A stretch of 64,000 nucleotides of DNA from Hydractinia symbiolongicarpus (taxonomy: Eukaryota > Cnidaria > Hydrozoa > Anthoathecata > Hydractiniidae): NCBI RefSeq assembly GCF_029227915.1, contig NC_079878.1, positions 14,818,001 to 14,882,000 of the forward strand, read 5' to 3'. The notes under the pieces are model-generated. The model did no database searches. It was not told the DNA's origin and saw nothing but the letters and a program-made list of their open reading frames with translations. Within the stretch, counting starts at the first letter, position 1; each line of letters begins with the position of its first letter. The position numbers and the translations under genes were made by a program. Positions 17,573 to 61,955 of the stretch are shown piece by piece.

Positions 17573-20500
17573 TCAATGTATCTTGGTCACTCCAAGTTCT
17601 AAGCGAAGCTTCTCGAACTGTGGTCGAGGGAGTCCCTTTGTCAATAAATCGGCAATCATTTCCTGCGTTGGACAGTATTTCAGCTTAATCTCCTTGGTCA
17701 GCGTCGCGTATGTAATGGTACTTGATGTCAATGTGTTTTGTTCGTGAGTGATGTGCGGGGTTTTTCGCAAGAGCGATTGCACCTTGGTTGTCTTCAAAAA
17801 TCGTAGTAGCATTTGCCTGTTTGAACCCCATACCATCAAGCAGGACTCGCAACCATACTGCCTCTTGTGTTGCACTGCATAATGAAACGTATTCAGCTTC
17901 GGTCGAAGAAAGTGCAACGATTGACTGACGTTTCGATTTCCATGAAATCGTGGAATTTCCGATTTGGAATACGTAACCGGAAGTCGATTTTTGTGTTACC
18001 ACATCTCCAGCCCAATCAGCGTCGGCGAAGCCACGTAAACAGTTCATCGTTTCGTAAGCTTTACTCCCCTTGTACACCAAACCATAGTCGATGGTTCCTT
18101 TAACGTATCGGAGAACTCGTTTAACACCAACCCAATGTTGCTTTCCAGGTTTCGACATGTGTTGACTAAGCACTCCCACTGCAGCGGACAAGTCTGGTCT
18201 GGTCCCAAACGATGCGTACGTCAGACATCCAATGACAGATTGGTACTCTTTCAGATTGACTGGTTCTTCGTCATCTCTCAGCTTTTTGAACTTTGTGTTG
18301 GGTTCGAGTGGAGTAGCTACTGGCTTGCAATCTTCCATTCCAAATCGTTTTAGCACAGATGATAAGAACGCGTGTTGGTCGATTGTAAGTACCCCATCCT
18401 TACGGTTTCGTTTGACGGCCATCCCAAAAATGTAGTGAACTTCCCCTTCGTCACCCATTTCGAAACGTTCACCTATCTGTTTCTTTTCGGAGAGGAGTTC
18501 TTTGTCGTTGTTTGATGCAATCAGCAGGTCGTCGACGTATACAGCAATAAGGAGGATAACTTCCTGTCCGTCCTTGATGAATCGTTTGAGATAGATGCAA
18601 GGGTCAGCATCGTTTTGTATGTATCCTGATTCCTTGAGGTATTTGTCGATGGTTTTGTTCCAGCATCGTGCAGACTGTTTCAAGCCATAGAGACTCTTTC
18701 GCAATCGACAAACCTTGTTCGGATGTTTCTTGTCGATGAAGCCTTCCGGTTGCTTAACGAAAATCTCTTCCTCGAGATCTCCTTTTAGGAATGCTGTTGT
18801 AACATCCATTTAGTGGAGGTTTAAGTCAAGTTGATTGGCAGTGGCTAGTACAGTACGAATAGAACTATACTTTGCGACAGGTGAGAAAACTTCGTCACAG
18901 TCGACACCGGGTTTTTGAGAGTATCCCTGTGCAACAAGACGAGCTTTACACCGGGTGATCTCGCCTTTAGCATCACGTTTGTGCTTAAAGACCCATTTAC
19001 TGCCAACAATGTTCTTACCGGGGGGTAAGTCAACCAAGTCCCGGGTTTGGTTCTGTTTCAGCGAATCAAATTCATTACAAAGTGCTTCAGACCATAGCTT
19101 TGAGTTCACACCGCTTAAAGCTTCTTCAATGGTCGTTGGCTCCTCAGTGTCCATAGCTGCGACCGATGCCGCCTCCATCAGGTTCCACCAATTACCTGTC
19201 AGAACGTTCAGTCTGTCAGGTGGTCTCCTTGCTCGTTGTGGTCTGGCATCTTCTTCGACAGCGACTTGCGGTTCACCGATGTTGTTTCCTGGTTGTTCCG
19301 TTTCAGCTTCTGCCTCAGCTTCTGCCTCAGCTTCTCTGAATGTTCCAGTAAAAAATTCGTGAGTTACGTTGTCCGATTTTTCGATGTCAAAAGCTTTCTC
19401 TACGAAGATGACATCACGACTTCGAAGCATCTCGTTTCAGGATTGAACAGTTTGTACCCTTTTTCGTTCGCAGGGTATCCAACTAAAACGCATGGAAACG
19501 ATTTCTTCTGGAGTTTTCCATTACGTTTTGATTCAGGAATATGCACGTACGTTTTGCAGCCAAACACTTTCAGGCCACTAACTTCAGGCTTTTTACCGTG
19601 CCAAAGTTCATAAGGCGTTGCTCCCTTCAGTGCAGCAGTAGGACTTCGGTTCCGTGTGTAGGATGCGGTAGATACAGCTTCAGCCCATAGGTTAAGGGGT
19701 TTCCTTGCGTGATGCAGCATTGATCGTGCAGTTTCCAGTAGGGTGCGGTTCATGCGTTCAGCAACTCCGTTTTGTTGTGGAGAGTATGGAATGGTCGGTT
19801 CACGTTGAATTCCTTGATTGTTGCAGAATTCATCAAAGGCCTTTGAGAAGTATTCACCACCATTATCTGAGCGAAGGCGTTTTATAGTTTCGTTCTCCAC
19901 GTGTAATCGTTCAACTTTCAATCCAGTGCGATTTTCAACAAGGTTTACAAACTGCCCAAACTTTTTGAGCACTTCAGACTTTTGCTTCATCATGTAGACA
20001 GTAGTGTATCTTGAGAAATCGTCTATAAAAGTCACAAAGTACCTGGAACCTCCCACTGAAGGTACATCCATCGGTCCACACACGTCACTGTGAATCAGCT
20101 CGAGCAATCTGGTTGTGGTGCTTTGCGATTTCTTTGGGAATGATTTGCGATGCTGTTTCCCCATTGCACATCCTTCGCAGATGCGATCGACGGCTTCCTT
20201 GGTATCGATATTCAGGCCATTTACCATCTCTTTATCGTTTAAGAGTTTGAGGTTGTCGTATCCCAGATGACCGTATCGTTGGTGCCATAGCTCGATTGAA
20301 TCCTGTTTGATTGTTTTCCCGATACAGCACGTTTCCTCGTTTCGTGGCTTTATCGTGTTAAGTTTGTAAAGTTTACCGTACTTATGTCCAATAGTATACT
20401 GCTTCCCCTCCTTGGTGATATCGCAATCCTTGCCTTTGAACTGCACATCGACTCCCTTATCGGTTAGGTAAGATAGAGAGAACAGTTTGTTTTGGATCTT

Positions 20501-46114: not shown

Positions 46115-47059
46115 GTAAGCAAAATGTGTTTCAAAATCCTTCATTTGGTCATCATTTATGTGCGTTTTATCAATTTTTAATGTTGTTGTGGTATAATAAT
46201 TTTTTTACTAAATGTCTAAACTCCTGTGATCAAATGGTATGATTTTTATGATACAATTTCGTAAAAGGTTCAGGTTCGATTCCTGACAGGAGTAAACTAT
46301 ATGTGATGCAGGCAGTACCTTCAAAATTAGTGTCACTCTATAGCTAGCTACTTTAAAATAATCATCTCAAGACAAAAAAAATTTTGATTTTGAGCTTAGG
46401 GAATAAACTATACATACTAATACACACTGGGTACTTGAAATTTATAAGAAATAGTAATAGAAATAGACATCCAGAAACCTAAAAGTATCACACTACCTCT
46501 ATCGTCCATCTTTGGTTGATTGCTTATAAACACGAACAAAGTGGACTGTTTGCATTCATCTTGTTACGGTTGAGAAATTCTGTCTACCTTTTTTTGCTTA
46601 TTTGCTTATACGCGATAGCAAAGTAGTTTTTCATCTCCGCATTCTCTCCATGCAAAAAAGCAAATATATCAACTTTGACACGCTTACTTGCTTATTCTTT
46701 ATTAATCGAGAAAACAAAGTTGCTTTTCGTTTCGCTTGCTCAGAGGAGTATCTATCTACTTTTTTTGGGAAAGTGAATAAGCGCAATAAGCAAAAACACA
46801 ACTTCCTCATCAGACTTCCTAAAAACACAAGGTAAACTACACATACGAGACGCGTGCGGGCTTTTTCTCTACGTTTTTGAAAGAAATTCTTTTTTTTAGT
46901 CAAATTTTTAATATGTTTTAGATGCTGCTTAATGTTTGCCATTTTGCGACATTTAAACGCTGTTTTGCTTGTAAATTCTGTTTAATTAAGGTTGCTCCTG
47001 AAAAGGTTTGAGCGTGAAAATTCCACTTTGTACCCCATCGGAGAGCAACGAAGGAGAAC
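46115..47059. other. Non-coding region
   Basis: No gene recognised apart from the tRNA-like sequence at 46220-46293. Confidence 0.4.
46220..46293 (+). tRNA. tRNA-like sequence, probably a pseudogene
   Basis: 74 nt that fold as a cloverleaf. The acceptor stem ACTCCTG/CAGGAGT is perfect. The D arm is ATCA/TGAT with GG in its loop. The anticodon stem is TATGA/TCGTA (one G-T pair) with loop TACAATT, and the T arm TCAGG-TTCGATT-CCTGA is perfect. The B box GGTTCGATTCC is intact. Position 33 would be A instead of the universal T, and three bases separate D and anticodon arms, so it is probably not a working tRNA (nominal anticodon CAA). Confidence 0.35.
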
Positions 47060-49332: not shown

Positions 49333-49643
49333 TTACTGTTGATGATATATTTGTTGACATGTGTTTTTTGATAAAAACGTATTCACCAATATAGTTAGAT
49401 AGATATTTTATTTATCAATAGCAGTTATATACCATTAAAATAAAAATAAAATAAATATAAAGAAAAAGAAAATAAATATATATAATATAGAAAATAAATA
49501 AATATAATAATTAGTCAGGGTAACAAAATTAAAATATATAATGCTATTGAAGGGAGACCATACCTAATAGCATGAAGCTAAGACAAAGGGTATGGCCCCC
49601 TTGGACAATTACAGTAAACGATATGAGACGTGCAAAACAATGT
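49333..49643. other. AT-rich spacer before SINE copy 2
   Basis: A very AT-rich AAATAAATATAA tract; no gene. Confidence 0.5.
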
Positions 49644-49998
49644 GGTGCCGTAGATTAGTGGTTATAGCTCTCTTACTCTGTGGGGGAAACTGGGGTTCGA
49701 TTCCTCTTGACGGCGATTCAACATGGGCGAGTGAATGTTACGATAGCCCCGGGTTAACCCAAGCCATGTTAGGGAAATTGGGGAGAAGGCTCCATGTGTG
49801 GGCTGTTGGATGTTCCTGGGAATTGTCTAGTAGAGCGCGGGCTCTAATTGGGTCTGCGTAGCTCAAAATGAGCATTAAATACTCTAGGACTCTCCATATA
49901 AGCCATGGCCCCTCCTGCAAATAATAGACAGGGTATATCCCTCGATATTAGTGAGGATAGCCATGTAAAATATGCACATCTATCTAACAACACACATA
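49644..49998 (+). mobile_element. tRNA-derived SINE, copy 2
   Basis: Same family as 27818-28190. A box TAGATTAGTGGTT, B box GGTTCGATTCC, long matching body, short AAC-rich tail. The match is high over the whole body (about 80-85% by eye). Confidence 0.85.
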
Positions 49999-50118: not shown

Positions 50119-50755
50119 TCAGGAATTAATGGCATTAAATTTAATTGAGTTATTGCCAAAAGAAATAGTATTAAAGGTAGGGAGATTGATCAAACCAATC
50201 TTCTCTGCCTGAGTGCCTTGAGCATGGGTGAAGTCAACCGCAAATGTATTAAGGATAGAATCAGGCAATTTTTCATGAAATAGTTTATGTAAAATAGAAT
50301 ATTGTGACATTGGAAAATATCAGAGAATTTGAGGAGCTCAAAATTACCATACAGGTGGCTGGATGATGCTCTTTGAGATTCAAGACAGTAATACAATTAA
50401 CATCAAGACTGTTTGGCTGACCCCAAATTTGATTACAATATTGCAAATGTGAATAAAAAATGGCATAGTAAACTAGAATAAGAACATTTAAAGGCACAAA
50501 ATGACGAAGTTTAGCTAAAGCTCTATTAGCCCTCTTGAGCTTGGCAACAGTATATCGTTGATCTGAGAATTCCAGTTTAAATCAGAATCTAGTAGAACAC
50601 CAAGATATTTAATACAATTACTAGGTATTAGCCTTTTACCATTGATAAAAAGCCTAAAATCGTAATTAAGAGGTTTCCGTGCATGTTTAAAAACAATGTA
50701 CTCAGTCTTACTAGCATTAAGAGAAATTCCATTGGCTGCTTACTGTGCTTAGTGT
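50119..50755 (-). pseudogene. LINE reverse transcriptase 3' fragment (CR1/jockey-like)
   Basis: Frames shift several times, but the minus strand reads in order: LNASKTEYIVF, NYDFRLFINGKRLIP, IKYLGVLLDSDLNWNSQI, ANRALAKLRHFVPLNVLILVYYAIFYSHLQYCNQIWG and, after a frameshift, LKFSDIFQCHNILFYINYF. These are the fingers/thumb and post-RT blocks of non-LTR retrotransposons. A 5'-truncated dead copy, consistent with target-primed integration. Confidence 0.75.
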
Positions 50756-52189: not shown

Positions 52190-52624
52190 TAATAAAAACG
52201 TGGATGCCAACAAAGACGTGAAAGACATATTTTCAGACAATGTACAATGACAATGTATATGAGAATGGTTAGGTGGATGTGTAGCGCCAGTCTGAGAGAC
52301 AGAAAGAGTTCAGATGAGCTAAGAAGCAGGCTAAGTCTCCGTAGAATTATAGATGTTATCCAGATAAGAAGATTGATTTGGCTGGGGCACTTTGGAAGAA
52401 TGGAGGAGGGTAATTGGGTAAGAAAGTGTAGAGACTTTGTAGTTCCTGGGGCAAAGCCCAGAGGCAGACCGAGAAAGACTTGGCAGGAGGTTATAAGGAC
52501 AGACGTGATACAGAGGAAGTTGAGTTTAGACCTAACACAGTCTAGATCAGATTGGAAGAGGGTCATTAATTATCCTCCGTCCAACCCATGCTCGCATGGA
52601 AAACGGACGTTAAGCCGAGAATGA
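52190..52624 (+). pseudogene. LINE C-terminal fragment
   Basis: From 52247: MRMVRWMCSASLRDRKSS, then LRRIIDVIQIRRLIWLGHFGRMEEGNWVRKC...RPRKTWQEVIRTDV...DWKRVI..SNPCSHGKRT. This is the characteristic C-terminal tail of invertebrate non-LTR retrotransposon polyproteins. 5'-truncated; the RT catalytic core is absent. Confidence 0.75.
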
Positions 52625-52878
52625 TGATATAAGGAACTGATATTGGAATATAGATATATTGATAAATGCTAATGCCAAATTTCGCTAACAGATTCATTGT
52701 TAATTCCGTTGGGTTTAAAATTGAATTTTTTTAATTCAACTTTTTCTGGCTAACTTTTTTTTTGAGGAAAAGATTTTGAGGATGAAGGTAATCTTTAAGA
52801 GATGGATTTTTACAGAAAGAAGTTTTCATGATTTTTTAGTTTTTTTTCTTTAGTTTACAAGTTCACAACAAATTTTAA

Positions 52879-52938
52879 GGGGCTGTTTATATGAGAGGCG
52901 GGACGGGACGATTGCCGGGACGGGACGTTTGCCGGGAT
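52879..52938 (+). repeat. Harbinger left terminal inverted repeat
   Basis: 60 bp, GC-rich with GGGACGGGACG motifs. Matches the right end perfectly by eye. Confidence 0.95.
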
Positions 52939-53502
52939 CCCGCTCTCATTGATAATTATACTTAAAATCACTTTGCGTTTATATGGAAAATTTTTGTCCC
53001 GGGACAATTTCGTCCCGTCCCGGCTGAGCGGGATCCCGCTTGAGCTAAGCGGGATCCCGGCTTAGGCGGGACGTTTTTTTCCATATAAACACACCGTCCC
53101 GGGACAAACGAGGTAATATTTGCACTATCAGCATATTTCAATAGAAAGAAAAAAACAAACATGGCTGCTAAACGTGCACTTGTTAAAGGTACTGTCCGAT
53201 TAAAAAACAATATCTTTTCTTTTGTTTTATTAAGTATCAAAAATAACGAAGATTGCACTCTTAAACAACAAAGATTTATCCAATACTTAGCACCATCGTT
53301 TGTTTGTTATGATCTTGTCTCAATCGCCTACCATCTTCACGAACTTTCGAACGCGGCAAAAGGACTGGGTAAATTCATTATTCAGCACATTTTTGCTTGT
53401 GACGTAGCTACCTGGCTTCTTATTAGGCGAACCCCCTGACTTGCGCATCGAAAGACTAAATGTTTATTTATAATTTTTTTCCTTTGCTTAAAAAAGTTTT
53501 TC

Positions 53503-54260
53503 ATGAAGATAGCAATGAATGAATATAATTCGCAGGTTCTAGGATTTCAATTCGAGCCGGAAAGAGTAGGGAATGATGAGCTAGTTCCGACTTTTCAAGA
53601 CGTAGACGAACATAAAATTGCCAGAGACCTTGTTGCTTCTACTCGCCTAAATGTTGAAGCAGGTCTATGGTGCCTGTGCGATAAATGTGAGAGGATGCCC
53701 TCTGAAGTAGAATGTTTGTGCTGTCACGAGATAGATTCTATTAAATACTTTCAATTACATGGTATAAAATTTTCTACTCCTTCATAAGAATTTCTTAGAT
53801 GCGAGTGTGATTGAGTAATATTGTAATATTTTTCAGATAAAAAATGTATTACGGAACACGAAGATTTCCGAGCGGTGGTTTTATTGAAGAATACGCTGTG
53901 GACAGCTTTGGTGGCACTCCATGACAGAGAGAGCAGAGGATTGGCGAAACGTGACGAAGTATCAAACAAGTAAGCAATAAAAAGACCCTGGGTTTGAAGT
54001 TGTTTATACTTACTCATTTTTTTGCACTGTACAATAAACTATTTACAACTTTGTTTAGATCGTACCGCTATGCCGCTTATCGACAGTTTTGCTGGTTCGT
54101 GCACAATCGTTTGGGTAGGGGGGTGCGACGAGTTATACCAGCATGTGTGGTATCCAAGATTCGCGAGGAGTTCCCTAGTGCCGACGGCGTTTATGTTGGT
54201 TACAAAGACGGGGTAGAAATTCCAGAGCTTAATATTTCATGGGAGGGGGGAAATTATTGA
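53503..54260 (+). CDS. P2X7 C-terminal (ballast)-domain-like protein of the Kolobok
   Basis: Exons 53503-53761, 53837-53969 and 54059-54260, with donors G|GTATAA and A|GTAAGC and acceptors TTTCAG and GTTTAG. The phases join to 197 residues. It has the hallmarks of the cytoplasmic 'ballast' domain of vertebrate P2X7: the cysteine cluster CLCDKCERMPSEVECLCC (about 66-83), CITEHEDF, and YRYAAYRQFCWFVHNRLG followed by RRVIPACVVSKIREEFPS. In P2X7 this domain binds zinc and guanine nucleotide; here there is no channel part. An upstream exon is possible, since an AG acceptor-like site lies just before VLGFQFEPE. The stop lies 30 bp from the convergent transposase stop. Its role for the transposon is unknown. 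Confidence 0.85.
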
Positions 54261-54290
54261 ACGGAAGCCTAATTTAAAAAAGTACAAAAT

Positions 54291-57200
54291 CTACAACTTA
54301 ATTCTTTTAAATTGTTGACTCTTTTCCACGATCTCTTCTTTTGGAGGTCGTTCTTCAGGCGCTATCTGTAAAGAACATTGGCGTTTTAAACGAGATCCAC
54401 TCGTCGCTTTTCTCTTCAACTGAGTTCTTTTTAAAATTTTGCGAACGATGTAGGTCAAGTATTCATAGTTTTTTTCCTCTCGTACAACTTTCGCAACAAA
54501 CCGTTTATTGGGCTTGGAATATGCGACGCGAAATAACGGGATTTTTTCGCCTTCCTCATCCGTTGTACACTTCTATAATAAAGTTATAAATAAAGTCATT
54601 AGTTAGGAAAAAAAAATTATAAAAAAATACTGACATGGTTTATTTCTTGAAAATCCTAAGTATTCTTACCTGAGCCCGATCAACGTTGTTGTTATGGTCT
54701 AATATTGCTAGTTGAGTCCCAGCAATCATTCTCTCCATTCTAAAGTAGGTGGCTTTGGGTAGGTAACGGATCTTCAGCGCATGAAAAACCTCCAGTAGGG
54801 TGGTGTGGATTTGCTCCGTCAGTTGATGTAGATCCTTTACCAACATTGGTTGGGTAACGATTTTTACCAATTTATCGTGCGCAGCCGAACCCATTACAAG
54901 CCACTCTTTGCGAAGTGCTTCTTCTTCTGACAATGTAGGGTGGTCGCATTTTTTGTAATATTTATTGTGTGCGAACACATGCCTGTTGACTGAATGGTGG
55001 ATTGCTGAAGTAAATCGCTCTGCCAACTCTTCACCGTTTCCGTTACACGTTGCGATCGACCAATACAAATGGTTCACGATAGACGGTGCCCATCTGGCGA
55101 GTATCTTTAGATCTATAATGATATACTAGCTTAAGTTAACGAACAGGATGTAGTGTTAAAATTACCTTGCTTAACTAGCTGCTTACTTGCAGTGATTAGA
55201 GCGAAAATTATATTCATCCTAACCTTTTTTTTTCGAAGCTTGTAGCAACTTTTTGATAAGGCCTTTGCCGATGTGCCATGGGTCAAACTGGTGTATAATG
55301 GCCTTAAATCGCTCCTCTGACCTCATTAGTTTTTTAATGGACGCGTGTCTATCCGTCGAAATCAACTTGATGGGTAGTTTATGTGTCATCTGAATATCGT
55401 CGATACAACGTATAAATCCTTCCTTCTCCATTGCCTGAGAACTTGTAACTTCCTATAAATGAAGGAAAAAAATCAAAAACGTGCACATTTAAATTCATTA
55501 CGGAACACAAGATGATGAACTTGCCTTGACATGCACGATTTTGAAGTTCAAGACTTTATTTGTTGTTGTATCCATAGCTGAGACAGTGCTATAGGTAGCG
55601 TTGTGTCCAGGCGAGTCGCATTGACCATCAACTGCCAGTTGCAGGGATCTTCCACTCTCCGTAATTTCCGAAATTTGCTCGCTTTGATTTTTTCGCCAAG
55701 CGTGATCGATTTCGGGATAAACATAATTTCCGCGATGATCATAATACACGGATTTGCCCAGAAATTTTAAATTCAACAATTTGGCGAACTTCTCGATTTT
55801 ATGGAATGAAGAGCCTGATAATTCGATTGCAGATGTAAGTAGGAGGTTCCCGATACCTCTTGATCCAGCCCACTTTGGTTGAGATGACCAGTCGTACTTG
55901 CACCCTTTAAAATATAATTACAATTTTTCTTTAGATTTCGCTACTGTACTTTAATAATGCCTAATATGCCTAAAAATTCAACTAATAGCGAAACTTTTAC
56001 TAATAAAAGTATAAGGATTTAAAATTTTTGAGGAAATGTACAATTTCAGTTACCTTGAGTACAAATGAAGTTCAGTTTCAGTTGGCTTCCCGTTCTTTTT
56101 GCTTCGAGTGTTTTCGACTTATCAAGAGGGGCACCACATTTATTGCAAAATCTGATAAGTTCATCGAGAGCAGATTCAAACACCAAAAACGTCCGTTGCA
56201 TATGAATAGGTGTGTCTTCCACTGGCGAGACAAAACTTGTGTTGTATTCGTCGTCATCTTGTGACTTTTCTTCTTCCAACTCGTAGTCAAGATCTGCCTT
56301 TGCTGTTCTGAAAAAAGAGGCGTAACAAAGATTAGTTTTTATCTAACCTCACTGCAAGTTCCATTGGTCATCGATTCATACCTTTGCAAGGATTTCTCCA
56401 GCCATGTGTCAACTTCTTCTTCTTCTATCTCATCTTCTGATTCGTTGTCGGCGTCAGAAACGACCTCATTGTCCGCGTTAACGCATTCATGTGGACTTTC
56501 GTTGCATGTTGATGTGACTGCTTTGCTTGGATGTTCAGTGAAACCCAGCATATACAGCAAGTCAATCCCAGTGTCTAAAGAAATTTATTAAAAAAATATA
56601 TATACGAACCACTCCATCCCCAGTGTTGTTAGCAGAATTTATCATGATATATACTTACTTTCATTTAAAGTGGGATTACAATTCAACAAGGATATCTCTT
56701 CTTCACTTATTTCGGATTCGTCATCAAAGTCATCATCATCGTCTGATTCGCCTGAATCTATAACTATAAAGAATTTGACAGTATACGCTTACAATGCGGA
56801 ATGATGTTCGCAATTCAAACTATGTTTACATACCAGTCTTATCAATTTGATCCACTTGAACACCAGCATCCATAGTTATTGGAGACCAATCTGGTGTTTG
56901 TGTTTGAGCGTCAGCAGAAAAGCACGTTGTTTGGCACGATGAGGATTTTATGTGAACATCTTTATATTGTGTTGAATCATTCCGTGTTGGAACAACAGCT
57001 TGACAACCAATGGAATATGTTCGACATTCAATATCAATAGTTGACGAAGTACAGCTGAAGTCGGTAACATCTTCGTATTGTTGAGGCACTTTTTCCAATG
57101 CTTGATTCACAATCTATAAAATAAAGATAGAATAATATTAAATGCGCTAACACTTATACCATTTCGAACGACCACCTAGGTACCAGCCCCCACTCACTTC

Positions 57201-57533
57201 CTTAACATCCTTTTCTTTCCTCCTGCGTTCAGATATTTCTCTGCCTTTTGGTTTTTCCTTGTACGGAAAAATGGAAGGGATAGACCCAGGTAAAAGTAAT
57301 GCTTTTTTTCTCCTCCCTGTGTAGAACAATTCGTTCTGAAGTTTCCAGGAAGGGTCGAAACATTTTTCTTCAAAATGATCAGAGCAAACGTATACTCTGG
57401 ACGGTAAGCTTGTTCGATTAATCAACTTAATCCAAGCTGATTTAATTTTCGGATCCTTAGGCAGTGAAAAAAAACTTTTATCCTGGTTTTTCCGACTGTT
57501 GTTAGTGCAATTCACAACAGCGCACCACGACAT
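54291..57533 (-). CDS. Kolobok transposase with THAP domain (nine exons)
   Basis: Exons: 57198-57533, 56834-57113, 56659-56763, 56382-56574, 56054-56307, 55525-55904, 55224-55452, 54670-55112, 54291-54572. All phases close to 2,502 nt (833 residues). One intron (after 55525) uses a GC donor (AAG|GCAAGT). Exon 1 is a THAP zinc domain (CAVVNC...VCSDHF...PSIF). Exons 2-5 are acidic linker. Exons 5-6 carry a CNKCG...CTQGC zinc motif and AVDGQCDSPGHNATYS, and exon 7 ISTDRHASI, likely catalytic Asp sites. Exon 8 has HHSVNRH...KC and LEVFHALKIRYLPK. I chose the second ATG (MSWCAVV) because THAP domains begin near the N terminus. The protein looks fully functional. Confidence 0.88.
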
Positions 57534-58160
57534 TATTCTGCCTTTCAACCTTACTGAATGTGCGATCTGAGCCTAATCTCTCTGTGGCGGGACATCTAGT
57601 GAAGGGGAAACTAATTTTTAATTTTTGATTGGTTGGCTTTAAAGTATCTGGAAACAACTATGCAACCCTAAGGTTAAAGTCATATTGGACTTAAAGTTTT
57701 ATTAGCGAATCCTTCTTACTTAAGGTTCGTACAGAATTGGCACAGTGTGTGTTCGCCTTAAGGTCTAGACACATCTTTCGCCTTCGATTTTATAATTCCA
57801 TATGAATAATTCATAAAAAGCGGTCTTTCACAATTTAGGGGGTAAAATTACAAAAATTTTTAAACATATAATAAAATATCAGCCTGGCCCACGTTTTATT
57901 TATTTTGGTCAGTTCAGCGCGCTCCAGGTAAATACGTCACACACGACATATTATTTCAGCCTCGCTTTAGTGCCTATCATCCACCATTTATATAAACAAT
58001 CGAAGCGAGAGACCGCATGCTTTTTTGTAAACAAGAATGAGATGTTGTTCAGTTGGTTTTAGGTAAGAAAACAAATAATTATTTAATTCTTTTATAGAAA
58101 TTAGTTACAAATAAGAATTTTTTGTCAAAATTTTAGTTGATTTTTAATCGGACAGTACCT
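57534..58160. other. Kolobok right-end non-coding region
   Basis: Holds the transposase promoter and 5' UTR. On the plus strand it has a TATA-like TTTATATAAAC at about 57986-57996, an ATG at 58037, a consensus donor AG|GTAAG at 58063 and a possible acceptor ending at 58155, all pointing outward into the Harbinger gene. Confidence 0.6.
58037..58062 (+). promoter_or_regulatory. Candidate outward-facing first exon in the Kolobok end
   Basis: ATG plus eight codons (MRCCSVGF), then AG|GTAAGA. Splicing to the AG at 58154-58155 gives a frame continuous with the distal Harbinger Myb-like ORF. This is an inference from splice consensus and phase only. Confidence 0.4.
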
Positions 58161-59583
58161 TTAAGAAGCCAACAGATGTTCCAACCAAGAAAAAGTGTTT
58201 TAGATTCAATGATGAAATGGTTTTTAACCTCATTAACTGTCTATTAGATTATAAAGCAAAGTGTGAGTTTGAGAACATTGATTTTGATGCAGACAAACCA
58301 ATGCAATACAAAGTCATTCGAACTGAGTTGGCAAAATTATATCAAAATGAAGAAGAAGTGTTTGGGCCAGTGGAGGATACCTCCACTGAGCTCTCCCAAG
58401 AAAATGTTAGGGAAATGAAAAAAATGATAGCAAGAGGCTACCAAAGAGTGTTAGAAAAAATAAAAGATTTACGGCAGGGATTTTCTAAGGCAGTAATTAG
58501 TGGCACGCGTAGTGGCTGTGGCAGATTAGTGTATGAACACTATGACAGTTTGAAGCTCCTTTGGAGTGGAAGTGCAAACACAGAGCCCCTACCCAATGGC
58601 ATTGATAGTGCTGATGTGAATCAAACAAAATCAAGTAATGAAATGTTATCTGACCATGATGATCCAACTGCAAATATTAATAGTGTTGACAGTGGTGAAT
58701 ATGAAGATCCAGCAGATGACGATAATTTGAGCTTCTCATCAAGTGATCAGTCAGTCTCAAAAAATTCATGCACTGTTACTTCCACACCAAAAACTACATC
58801 AGCAGTGCCAAAACTTATTGATAATAAAAGAAAACAACTTGAGAGAAAGTTGTCATCTGCTCAGCGTGATACCTTACTGTTGAGAGAAGCAAAAGAAGAA
58901 AGATCTGATCGTAAAGAGCTCCAAGAGATGATTAAAAATTCTAATGAGTCCTTTACAGCTGCACTTAATAATATAAGCCAGGCTATGTTGCAAATTAGCG
59001 AAACTATGTCACACTCCATGCAGCTGATGGCACAATCATTCAGCCAGCAAGCAGGTCCAAGCTCACAAAATTATGAAAGCTATGGTAGACGTCACCATTT
59101 TCAGCATATAAATCCAAATTGTAATGTCGTCTCAAGCATCGTAACCCAAAACAACAACATAAGTCCCATCGATCCCAGTGGCGGTGGTTATTATCAATCA
59201 TTAATGAGGGAATGATACGAAGAAGAAAAAAACATGTGTATATAGTTCAGAGAGTGTTTCAGGAACAATTACATTGATGCAAGTTTATGTTCACAGACAA
59301 ACCTAAAAGTTATATTATGTTGATTGCCTAAACATTTATGTTATGTTAGTTGCCCAACAAACTATATGCCCTAAACGTTCTAATCCGTAGATTTTTAACA
59401 AAAATTAACAACAAACAAAAATATTTTCACTGTGAGTTACATTGAGCATAATAGGCTTTCAAATCTTTAGCAGTATCAGAAGAAACTTTTTATTGAAATT
59501 AATGTGCGAATTTCCTTTTACAGAACATGCAATACTTTATAAATCTTTACATTTTTTGTATATATTGTATATATATATAATTG

Positions 59584-60897
59584 TTAGTATGGAAGACTGT
59601 CCTGTATAAAATTTGTTATTACTTCCCGTACAACATCACCCTCTGCAAGATTTCCTAAATACACAGAGTAATCTAATTGTTGTGTCTCTGCTTTATGCTT
59701 TTCTATTTCAATTTTCACCAAATCAGGGTCAATAACACATTTGTTAAGTTCACATATATTGTGCAGCACAAAACATGCATAGATTGCCACAGGAACAAAA
59801 TCTATTTTTAAATCAACTTTCTTTGGTAAAAAACCCCATCTGGCTTTTAAGCGTCCAAAAGCACACTCGACTGGGTTTCTTGCTGACCGGAGCATGTTGT
59901 TAAATAACACTTGAGCATTTGTTGAACAACTATGGTACTCTTTCATACAGTACGGTGTCAAGGGGTATGCAGGGTCACCAATCAAATAGTTTGGAACTTT
60001 GGCTCGGCCTGGCAGGATGTCCTCATAAGTAATGGGTATTTCCTCATCTTTAAGTTTAGCAGCAATATTTGAGTTGGCGAACACCTTCGCGTCATGTACA
60101 CTGCCTGGCCACCTACAATCAACATCCATGAAATAGCCACGGAAATCGCATACTGCCTGAACGTTAAGAGAAAAATACATTTTGTAAGAAAAATAATCTT
60201 GTGAATGTTCACTAGGTCGTAAAATTTGTACGTGGGTGCCATCTATGCAGCCAAAAGCTTGCGTCATTCCAAATTTGGCCTCAAATTCTCCTACTTTTTC
60301 AAGCATCTCTTCTTTCGTTTTTGGCAGGGCTATGTATTTTGGTCCAAGCTTGTAAGTTATGCAGTTACAAACATCTCTTATGACTTTTGACACCGTAGAT
60401 ATGTGCAGGCCAAAAGTGTTTGCTGTCATTGATAAAGATCCTGTGTCTTTCAAGTAGTACAACGTTACTGCAACTTTTTTTTCTGCAGACAAGGCTCGAT
60501 AATTTGGAGATGTGTTGTCAGGAGTAATCCATATGCGTATTTGATCTACTAAATCAGTAAACATAGCCTTTGTCATTCTGAAGTTCTTTTTCCAATCCTC
60601 CTCGGGAAGAACATCAAAAAACATGTTCAACCACCACTGTTCCACTCGTCCTTGTTTGAACCATGTTGAACGAGGAATTCGGTTTTTCCTTTGCTCTTTC
60701 AATGCTTTCTGTTTTTTTATCCAACAGTTTCTTTTGCTTCCACTCAAAAGTGATGCAGTTAAAAGAGTTTTATAGTGAGTGTATTGAAGTGCTAAAATCA
60801 TTAACAATGTATTGAGCTGCAACAACAATGTTGATGATGTTAAAAAAATCTGTTTATTCGCTTGCAATTTTGTTTTATTTTCGTTTTGACGCGCCAT
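59584..60897 (-). CDS. PIF/Harbinger transposase, intact
   Basis: 437 residues from the ATG at 60897. A DDE_Tnp_4-type nuclease that excises and integrates the element, normally with the Myb-like partner. The N-terminal third contains a helix-turn-helix region (VTLYYLKDTGSLSMTANTFGLHISTVSKVI). Catalytic motifs are AFGCIDGTHVQI (first Asp), LIGDPAYPLTPY (second Asp) and NPVECAFGRLKARWGFL (Glu). Length and motif spacing match HARBI1-like proteins. No frame break. The start lies inside the GC-rich sub-terminal region about 145 bp from the element end. Confidence 0.93.
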   Translation of the reverse strand: MARQNENKTKLQANKQIFLTSSTLLLQLNTLLMILALQYTHYKTLLTASLLSGSKRNCWIKKQKALKEQRKNRIPRSTWFKQGRVEQWWLNMFFDVLPEEDWKKNFRMTKAMFTDLVDQIRIWITPDNTSPNYRALSAEKKVAVTLYYLKDTGSLSMTANTFGLHISTVSKVIRDVCNCITYKLGPKYIALPKTKEEMLEKVGEFEAKFGMTQAFGCIDGTHVQILRPSEHSQDYFSYKMYFSLNVQAVCDFRGYFMDVDCRWPGSVHDAKVFANSNIAAKLKDEEIPITYEDILPGRAKVPNYLIGDPAYPLTPYCMKEYHSCSTNAQVLFNNMLRSARNPVECAFGRLKARWGFLPKKVDLKIDFVPVAIYACFVLHNICELNKCVIDPDLVKIEIEKHKAETQQLDYSVYLGNLAEGDVVREVITNFIQDSLPY

Positions 60898-60982
60898 TAT
60901 ACTTTAGAAAATTTTAAATTTGGCGCTTGTGTTGTGAAATCGTCCCGGCGCACTTTTTTCCATATAAAGGCGGGATAAAATC

Positions 60983-61042
60983 ATCCCGGCAAACGTCCCG
61001 TCCCGGCAATCGTCCCGTCCCGCCTCTCATATAAACAGCCCC
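60983..61042 (-). repeat. Harbinger right terminal inverted repeat
   Basis: Inverted match of the left 60 bp, followed by TAA at 61043-61045. Confidence 0.95.
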
Positions 61043-61955
61043 TAAGAGTCAGTCATGTGTTTGCATGTGTTTACCATTTATTCGCTGAAATAAATTCTTG
61101 TAAAGAGAACATTTTCTTACTTGCATGTCATTTTGTTATGATATCTTTTCAACATTTTCCTATCCTTGTCAGAAAAGTTTGACCCCCCATTCCCCTCTTA
61201 ATACTAGATTCCTAACCAATTATATATATACAATATAAAATTTTGGAGTTTTTTGCGAGAATTAATTTTTTTATATCGGGTATTTATTATTAACTAAAAG
61301 AACATACATGTCTGAAGATTTTTGCAAAAACCGTTTTGCTGATGGTGAAGATTTAGTAATTTTAGTGAAAGAAAAATCAGTATTGTCAAATAATGAAAAC
61401 TTTATTGTGGATAAAAAATGAAAAACTAGGGTTAAGGTAGGTAACGTAATGATAAAATAAGAAAAGTATTTTCAGTGGTGTTTTCCTTGCCCCTGCGCAC
61501 TGGCCAGGCTAACTAAAGCTAACTGGCTTGAACTACACCTTTCACCACACCTTTCGTCAGCTATTTACCTAGCTAGTTAGCTAACTGCACTTGCTTTGTT
61601 TTGAAATATAATGGTAGTAACTATTGGGGACAATACTTTTTAAACTATAAAAATTAGCAATGTGGTGCCAACAATAACATTTCTTTCTGGTTTAACACGT
61701 TGGACACTTGACTTTTAGCTAGGCTAACCTTAAGACGGAATCAACAGTCTTCGGTCGTTTAATAACCTTGACTTTTTTTTTTTTGATAGAATACAGTCCA
61801 TAAACCATTAAAGAATACCCTTCTTTAATTTTAGTGTTATAATAGTAAAGCAGGAGATATAAAAGTTCTTTTATACCTCTATGGGTAAACCACAAGTTAA
61901 ATTTTCTGTTAATGTTGTTGTTATTTTCTTCTTGTTGCGCTACCATTGTGAAGAA
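61043..61955. other. Interior of the outer TIR element, right side
   Basis: Non-coding; a short minus-strand frame at 61719-61946 has no recognisable family. Confidence 0.4.

Follow-up and report, generated by a model that had tools for sequence, protein, structure and literature searches.

A three-exon gene in the window, the 64,000-nucleotide stretch of Hydractinia symbiolongicarpus DNA analyzed here, is very probably KolX, the second gene of a Kol0-type Kolobok DNA transposon. In their treatment of Kolobok lineages, Kojima and Bao describe the Kol0 group as encoding a transposase together with KolX, a protein similar to residues 476-595 of P2X7 with its seven zinc cysteines, and having the fold of the P2X7 cytoplasmic ballast (Kojima and Bao, 2022; Mob DNA 13:24, PMC9587614). 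The link between P2X7 and KolX has therefore been in print since 2022, and the element in the window is a further example of it; new here are a nested, apparently recent Kolobok copy and an arginine-rich loop that is kept in KolX-like proteins. The raw sequence gives independent confirmation that a DNA transposon has, as one of its genes, the domain that forms the tail of an inflammation receptor. The copy found here looks intact, is apparently recent and has both genes, and so lends itself to tests of KolX function. Our literature search for KolX found no experiment on it, the published treatment being comparative. The features of the element are collected in Table 1.

Table 1. Coordinates of the Kolobok element, its two genes and the element that holds it.
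Feature	Position	Strand	Evidence or remark
Harbinger-type element holding the Kolobok	52879..61042	.	TAA duplications 52876-52878 and 61043-61045
Left TTAA target-site duplication	53183..53186	.	sequence
Kolobok element, 4974 bp, 5'-AG ... CT-3'	53187..58160	.	inverted termini, in-frame empty site
Left terminal inverted repeat	53187..53210	+	starts AGGTACTGTCCGATTAAAAA
KolX exon 1	53503..53761	+	GT donor, homology
KolX exon 2	53837..53969	+	AG acceptor, GT donor, homology
KolX exon 3 with stop TGA at 54258-54260	54059..54260	+	AG acceptor, homology
THAP-DDE Kolobok transposase, nine exons, 833 aa	54291..57533	-	Pfam, homologues, catalytic residues
Transposase exon 9 with stop	54291..54572	-	
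Transposase exon 8, catalytic E	54670..55112	-	
Transposase exon 7, second catalytic D and DPWH motif	55224..55452	-	
Transposase exon 6, first catalytic D; GC donor GCAAGT	55525..55904	-	
Transposase exon 5	56054..56307	-	
Transposase exon 4	56382..56574	-	
Transposase exon 3	56659..56763	-	
Transposase exon 2	56834..57113	-	
Transposase exon 1, THAP DNA-binding domain	57198..57533	-	Pfam
Right terminal inverted repeat	58137..58160	-	reverse complement of AGGTACTGTCCGATTAAAAA ends at 58160
Right TTAA target-site duplication	58161..58164	.	sequence

A ballast-domain gene without a channel

The exon-intron structure of the KolX gene was predicted from splice signals and homology. Both introns (75 and 89 bp) are GT-AG, and the predicted product has 197 residues, with a reading frame that is unbroken across the three exons. 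The original prediction had placed a cysteine cluster and the blocks YRYAAYRQF, RRVIPACVV and IREEFPS in this gene, and all are found in the translation. It had also taken the protein for a P2X7 cytoplasmic tail without a channel, and both halves of that reading are upheld by comparison with Pfam. The protein matches P2RX7_C (PF20478) at 69.1 bits (E 6e-19; cut-off 23.5), the match spanning residues 49-180 of KolX and positions 74-192 of the 192 in the profile; the Pfam matches listed to E 10 include nothing besides this intracellular domain, and no trace of the transmembrane part of a P2X receptor. Comparison with solved structures returned four distinct sequences at E up to 1, each of them P2X purinoceptor 7, with E values from 1e-7 to 1.5e-6. 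The Pfam score and the structure matches together rule out a chance resemblance to the P2X7 tail. The seven-cysteine spacing pattern is present in KolX and in 75 of the 124 relatives listed, some of which are short fragments. A structure model of a relative, rather than of the window protein itself, matches the solved P2X7 tails by fold (mean pLDDT 60.4; residues 1-46 below 50).

No further copy was found elsewhere in the window by blastn at E<=1e-3, and tblastn returned only an insignificant piece at 19615-19749 (E 0.13). Searches for relatives of KolX yielded 68 stretches in viral_contigs and 30 in genome_contigs, with none confirmed in either set; for an animal gene this is no surprise. In the protein lists, the KolX-like P0011 and the THAP transposase P0081 come from the same kind of source, with a longest contig of 4232 for both; the agreement may be coincidence, and both lists hold many short contigs. 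A Hydractinia contig of 33 Mb is given for both P0001 and P0024, which says nothing on adjacency.

The Kolobok element and its insertion site

The gene had been predicted to lie in a TTAA-bounded, active-looking Kolobok, and this is borne out by the termini, the insertion site and the transposase. An inverted pair at 53179-53210 and 58137-58168 (32 nt, 94% complementary) is made up of flank, TTAA and element termini; within the termini the first 20 nt are identical, and 23 of 24 positions agree overall. The element holds two convergent genes, KolX on the plus strand and the transposase on the minus strand, and as no more than 30 bp separates the two stop codons, the transcripts probably overlap or have their ends almost side by side.

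When the flanks of the Kolobok are joined with a single TTAA, they form an open frame of 358 codons, which begins at an ATG at 53161, crosses the insertion point and runs to the end of the frame 58163-59212. The latter is a plus-strand frame of the surrounding Harbinger-type element; it has no Pfam match at E<=0.01, and the Kolobok interrupts it close to its start. This in-frame empty site fixes the boundaries of the Kolobok and shows that 53187-58160 was inserted as one unit, precisely at TTAA. The outer element encodes a DDE_Tnp_4 transposase on its minus strand (59587-60903, E 6e-36), which together with the TAA duplications we take to be the signature of PIF/Harbinger. The first 60 bases of its termini are identical. 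As the Kolobok came after a Harbinger copy whose termini have not yet diverged, its insertion is apparently recent.

Predicted splicing of the Kolobok transposase involves eight introns, seven GT-AG and one GC-AG, and leaves no internal stop in 833 residues. Its Pfam matches at E<=1 are an N-terminal THAP domain (PF05485, E 2e-16), a Mutator-like transposase (PF20700, E 3e-10) and two weak zinc models; a THAP domain at the N-terminus is described as usual for the Kolobok superfamily (PMC6004289). With residues 340-830 as a query, homologous proteins at E<=0.001 numbered 81 and reached E 2e-149; Hydractinia, Clytia, fishes, frogs, ticks and an acorn worm are among their sources. When the window protein was aligned with 12 of these 81, picked by hand, D482, D550, D573, H576 and E700 proved invariant in all 13 rows. 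We read D482, D550 and E700 as the DDE triad, and DPWH at 573-576 as the DxxH between the second D and the E. The element thus combines the traits of the Kolobok superfamily: a DDE transposase with C/DxxH between the second D and the E, an N-terminal THAP domain, a TTAA target-site duplication that is reduced to one TTAA in the in-frame empty site, and 5'-AG ... CT-3' termini, in keeping with the 5'-RR and YY-3' rule given for Kolobok in PMC9587614. Its KolX gene with P2X7 ballast similarity would place it in the Kol0 lineage as described in the same paper. With both genes uninterrupted, the copy appears intact and looks capable of activity. Two other assignments were considered and rejected. 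The long terminal direct repeats of KolobokP, of about 450 or 660 bp, are absent, the longest direct repeat reported in 52600-58900 being 29 nt, and the transposase matches no piggyBac model in Pfam at E<=1.

Other possible repeats lie at lower coordinates in the window. The segments 50285-50739 (minus strand) and 52196-52624 (plus strand) resemble, by eye, reverse-transcriptase remnants of non-LTR elements, and have no Pfam match at E<=0.01. The region at about 49640-49960 looks like a tRNA-derived SINE with a box-B-like GGTTCGATTCC, and is not reported by ARAGORN. ARAGORN did report a tRNA-Leu (anticodon caa) at 46220-46294 in A+T-rich sequence, a call that may reflect a tRNA-derived repeat instead of a true gene; at the gathering threshold Rfam returned no match, for this call included.

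Conserved residues and the possible role of KolX

Among the 124 relatives listed, the 79 with both core motifs were compared as proteins, not as transposon genes. Besides the cysteines, the best-kept columns of KolX-like proteins include an arginine-rich stretch from R-Y-A-A-Y-R-Q-F to R-R-V-I-P. The loop segment within it, taken as lying between AY[RKH] and [IVL]P[AS]C, was delimited in 73 of the 79 proteins; it has a median net charge of +4 (zero or below in one of the 73), with LG[KRQH] in 69 and three or more basic residues in 70. The same segment in the P2X7 of human and mouse, the two vertebrates compared, carries a net charge of -1. This conserved loop hints at nucleic-acid binding, and the difference in charge would fit a contact with nucleic acid that has become dispensable in P2X7; charge by itself is weak evidence for such a contact. 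The N-terminal part of KolX is acidic, with a net charge of -5 in the window protein and a median of -10 in the 79 relatives.

The places that contact GDP in P2X7, numbered by way of the structure-match alignment, were readable by pattern in 74 of the 79 KolX-like proteins. Arginine stands at the R546 place in 67 and at the R578 place in 73 of the 74. Histidine is kept at the H547 place in three, lysine at the K583 place in two and arginine at the R574 place in none, so that GDP binding is disfavored as the ancestral role of the KolX fold. The same trend at the GDP-contact places is reported in the discussion of these proteins by Rump (2020; PMC7016195), where their GDP binding is left open.

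The mechanism that we envisage begins with the THAP-DDE transposase, which would excise the element and paste it at TTAA. KolX would be a small ballast-fold protein with a predicted two-zinc cysteine cluster, and we tentatively propose, at somewhat less than even confidence, that it is a nuclear helper of transposition acting through its arginine-rich helix-loop on the element ends or the TTAA target. The zinc cluster would hold the fold that presents this helix-loop to the sugar-phosphate backbone of the ends or target, and KolX would aid the transposase in assembling, choosing or handing off ends. P2X7 would have taken this fold into service on the cytoplasmic face of a channel, and the human and mouse receptors lack the basic loop. 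An earlier suggestion that the gene may itself serve transposition is plausible. Against the helper role, the basic loop may also bind RNA, protein or membrane phosphates. That KolX is a dedicated factor for TTAA ends or TTAA targets is quite improbable, and the passages of PMC9587614 on TTAA and piggyBac do not connect KolX with TTAA handling. Were its arginine-rich part to handle TTAA, the P2X7 tail would descend from a domain that once handled DNA and now works at the membrane, having lost the basic loop in human and mouse.

KolX could instead serve the element as a regulator of transcription, host silencing or transposase dosage. The acidic N-terminal part would fit a protein contact of this kind, but the best-kept columns other than the cysteines sit in the arginine-rich C-terminal half, and we consider a regulator somewhat unlikely. 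A further reading makes the gene cargo: the transposon would have acquired a host ballast gene, in a single event at the root of Kol0 or several times over. In favor of this, many animals have ballast genes annotated on their own, a neighborhood shared with two markers is reported for invertebrates by Rump (2020; PMC7016195), and the present data leave the ballast family unrooted. However, Kojima and Bao treat KolX as the accessory protein that goes with the Kol0 lineage, and in their argument accessory proteins are parts of Kolobok families (PMC9587614); KolX and the transposase are both intact in the window copy. Host cargo is an improbable origin. As the regular second gene of this lineage according to the published survey, KolX is not a stray passenger. 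Chance juxtaposition, with a host gene lying between two unrelated TTAA-flanked repeats, is hardly credible, given an empty site that marks the element as a single insertion and two convergent genes whose stop codons nearly meet.

The original prediction had also offered the transposon as the vehicle by which P2X7 gained its tail. A transposon source is favored by the literature rather than by the present data: the origin proposed for P2X7 is the fusion of a P2X4-like gene with KolX, and Nanor is likely another domesticated KolX, according to the account of domestication in PMC9587614. The idea of a vehicle is therefore not new.

Comparison with known systems

Kolobok elements of the Kol0 group (type Kolobok-1_XT, PMC9587614) are described as sharing with the window element the TTAA duplication, the 5'-RR/YY-3' termini, a DDE transposase with DxxH, and a second gene whose product has seven cysteines and resembles the P2X7 ballast; this likeness is judged from the published description. 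The window copy differs in being nested in a Harbinger-type element. KolobokP, KolobokD, KolobokE and KolobokH are likewise Kolobok lineages that each carry an accessory gene in the same account, but these genes are nucleases or a helicase, unlike KolX, and the long terminal direct repeats of KolobokP have no counterpart here.

The ZCD or Nanor-like proteins of Rump (2020; PMC7016195) resemble KolX in being short, with a zinc-cysteine domain and mostly no other domain. That domain is reported there across animals with no transposon named, and neither 'transpos' nor 'Kolobok' occurs in the main text, whereas KolX belongs to a transposon. One tick protein is described in that paper as joining a domain printed 'TAHP' to the zinc-cysteine region; if THAP is meant, it would appear to be the two genes of a Kolobok run together as a single gene. 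The P2X7 ballast domain itself (PF20478) differs from the window KolX in being attached to a channel, in its H547, R574 and K583, where KolX has Y, V and S, and, in human and mouse, in the absence of the basic loop; the two share the seven zinc cysteines, the arginines at the R546 and R578 places and, as modeled for a relative of KolX, the fold.
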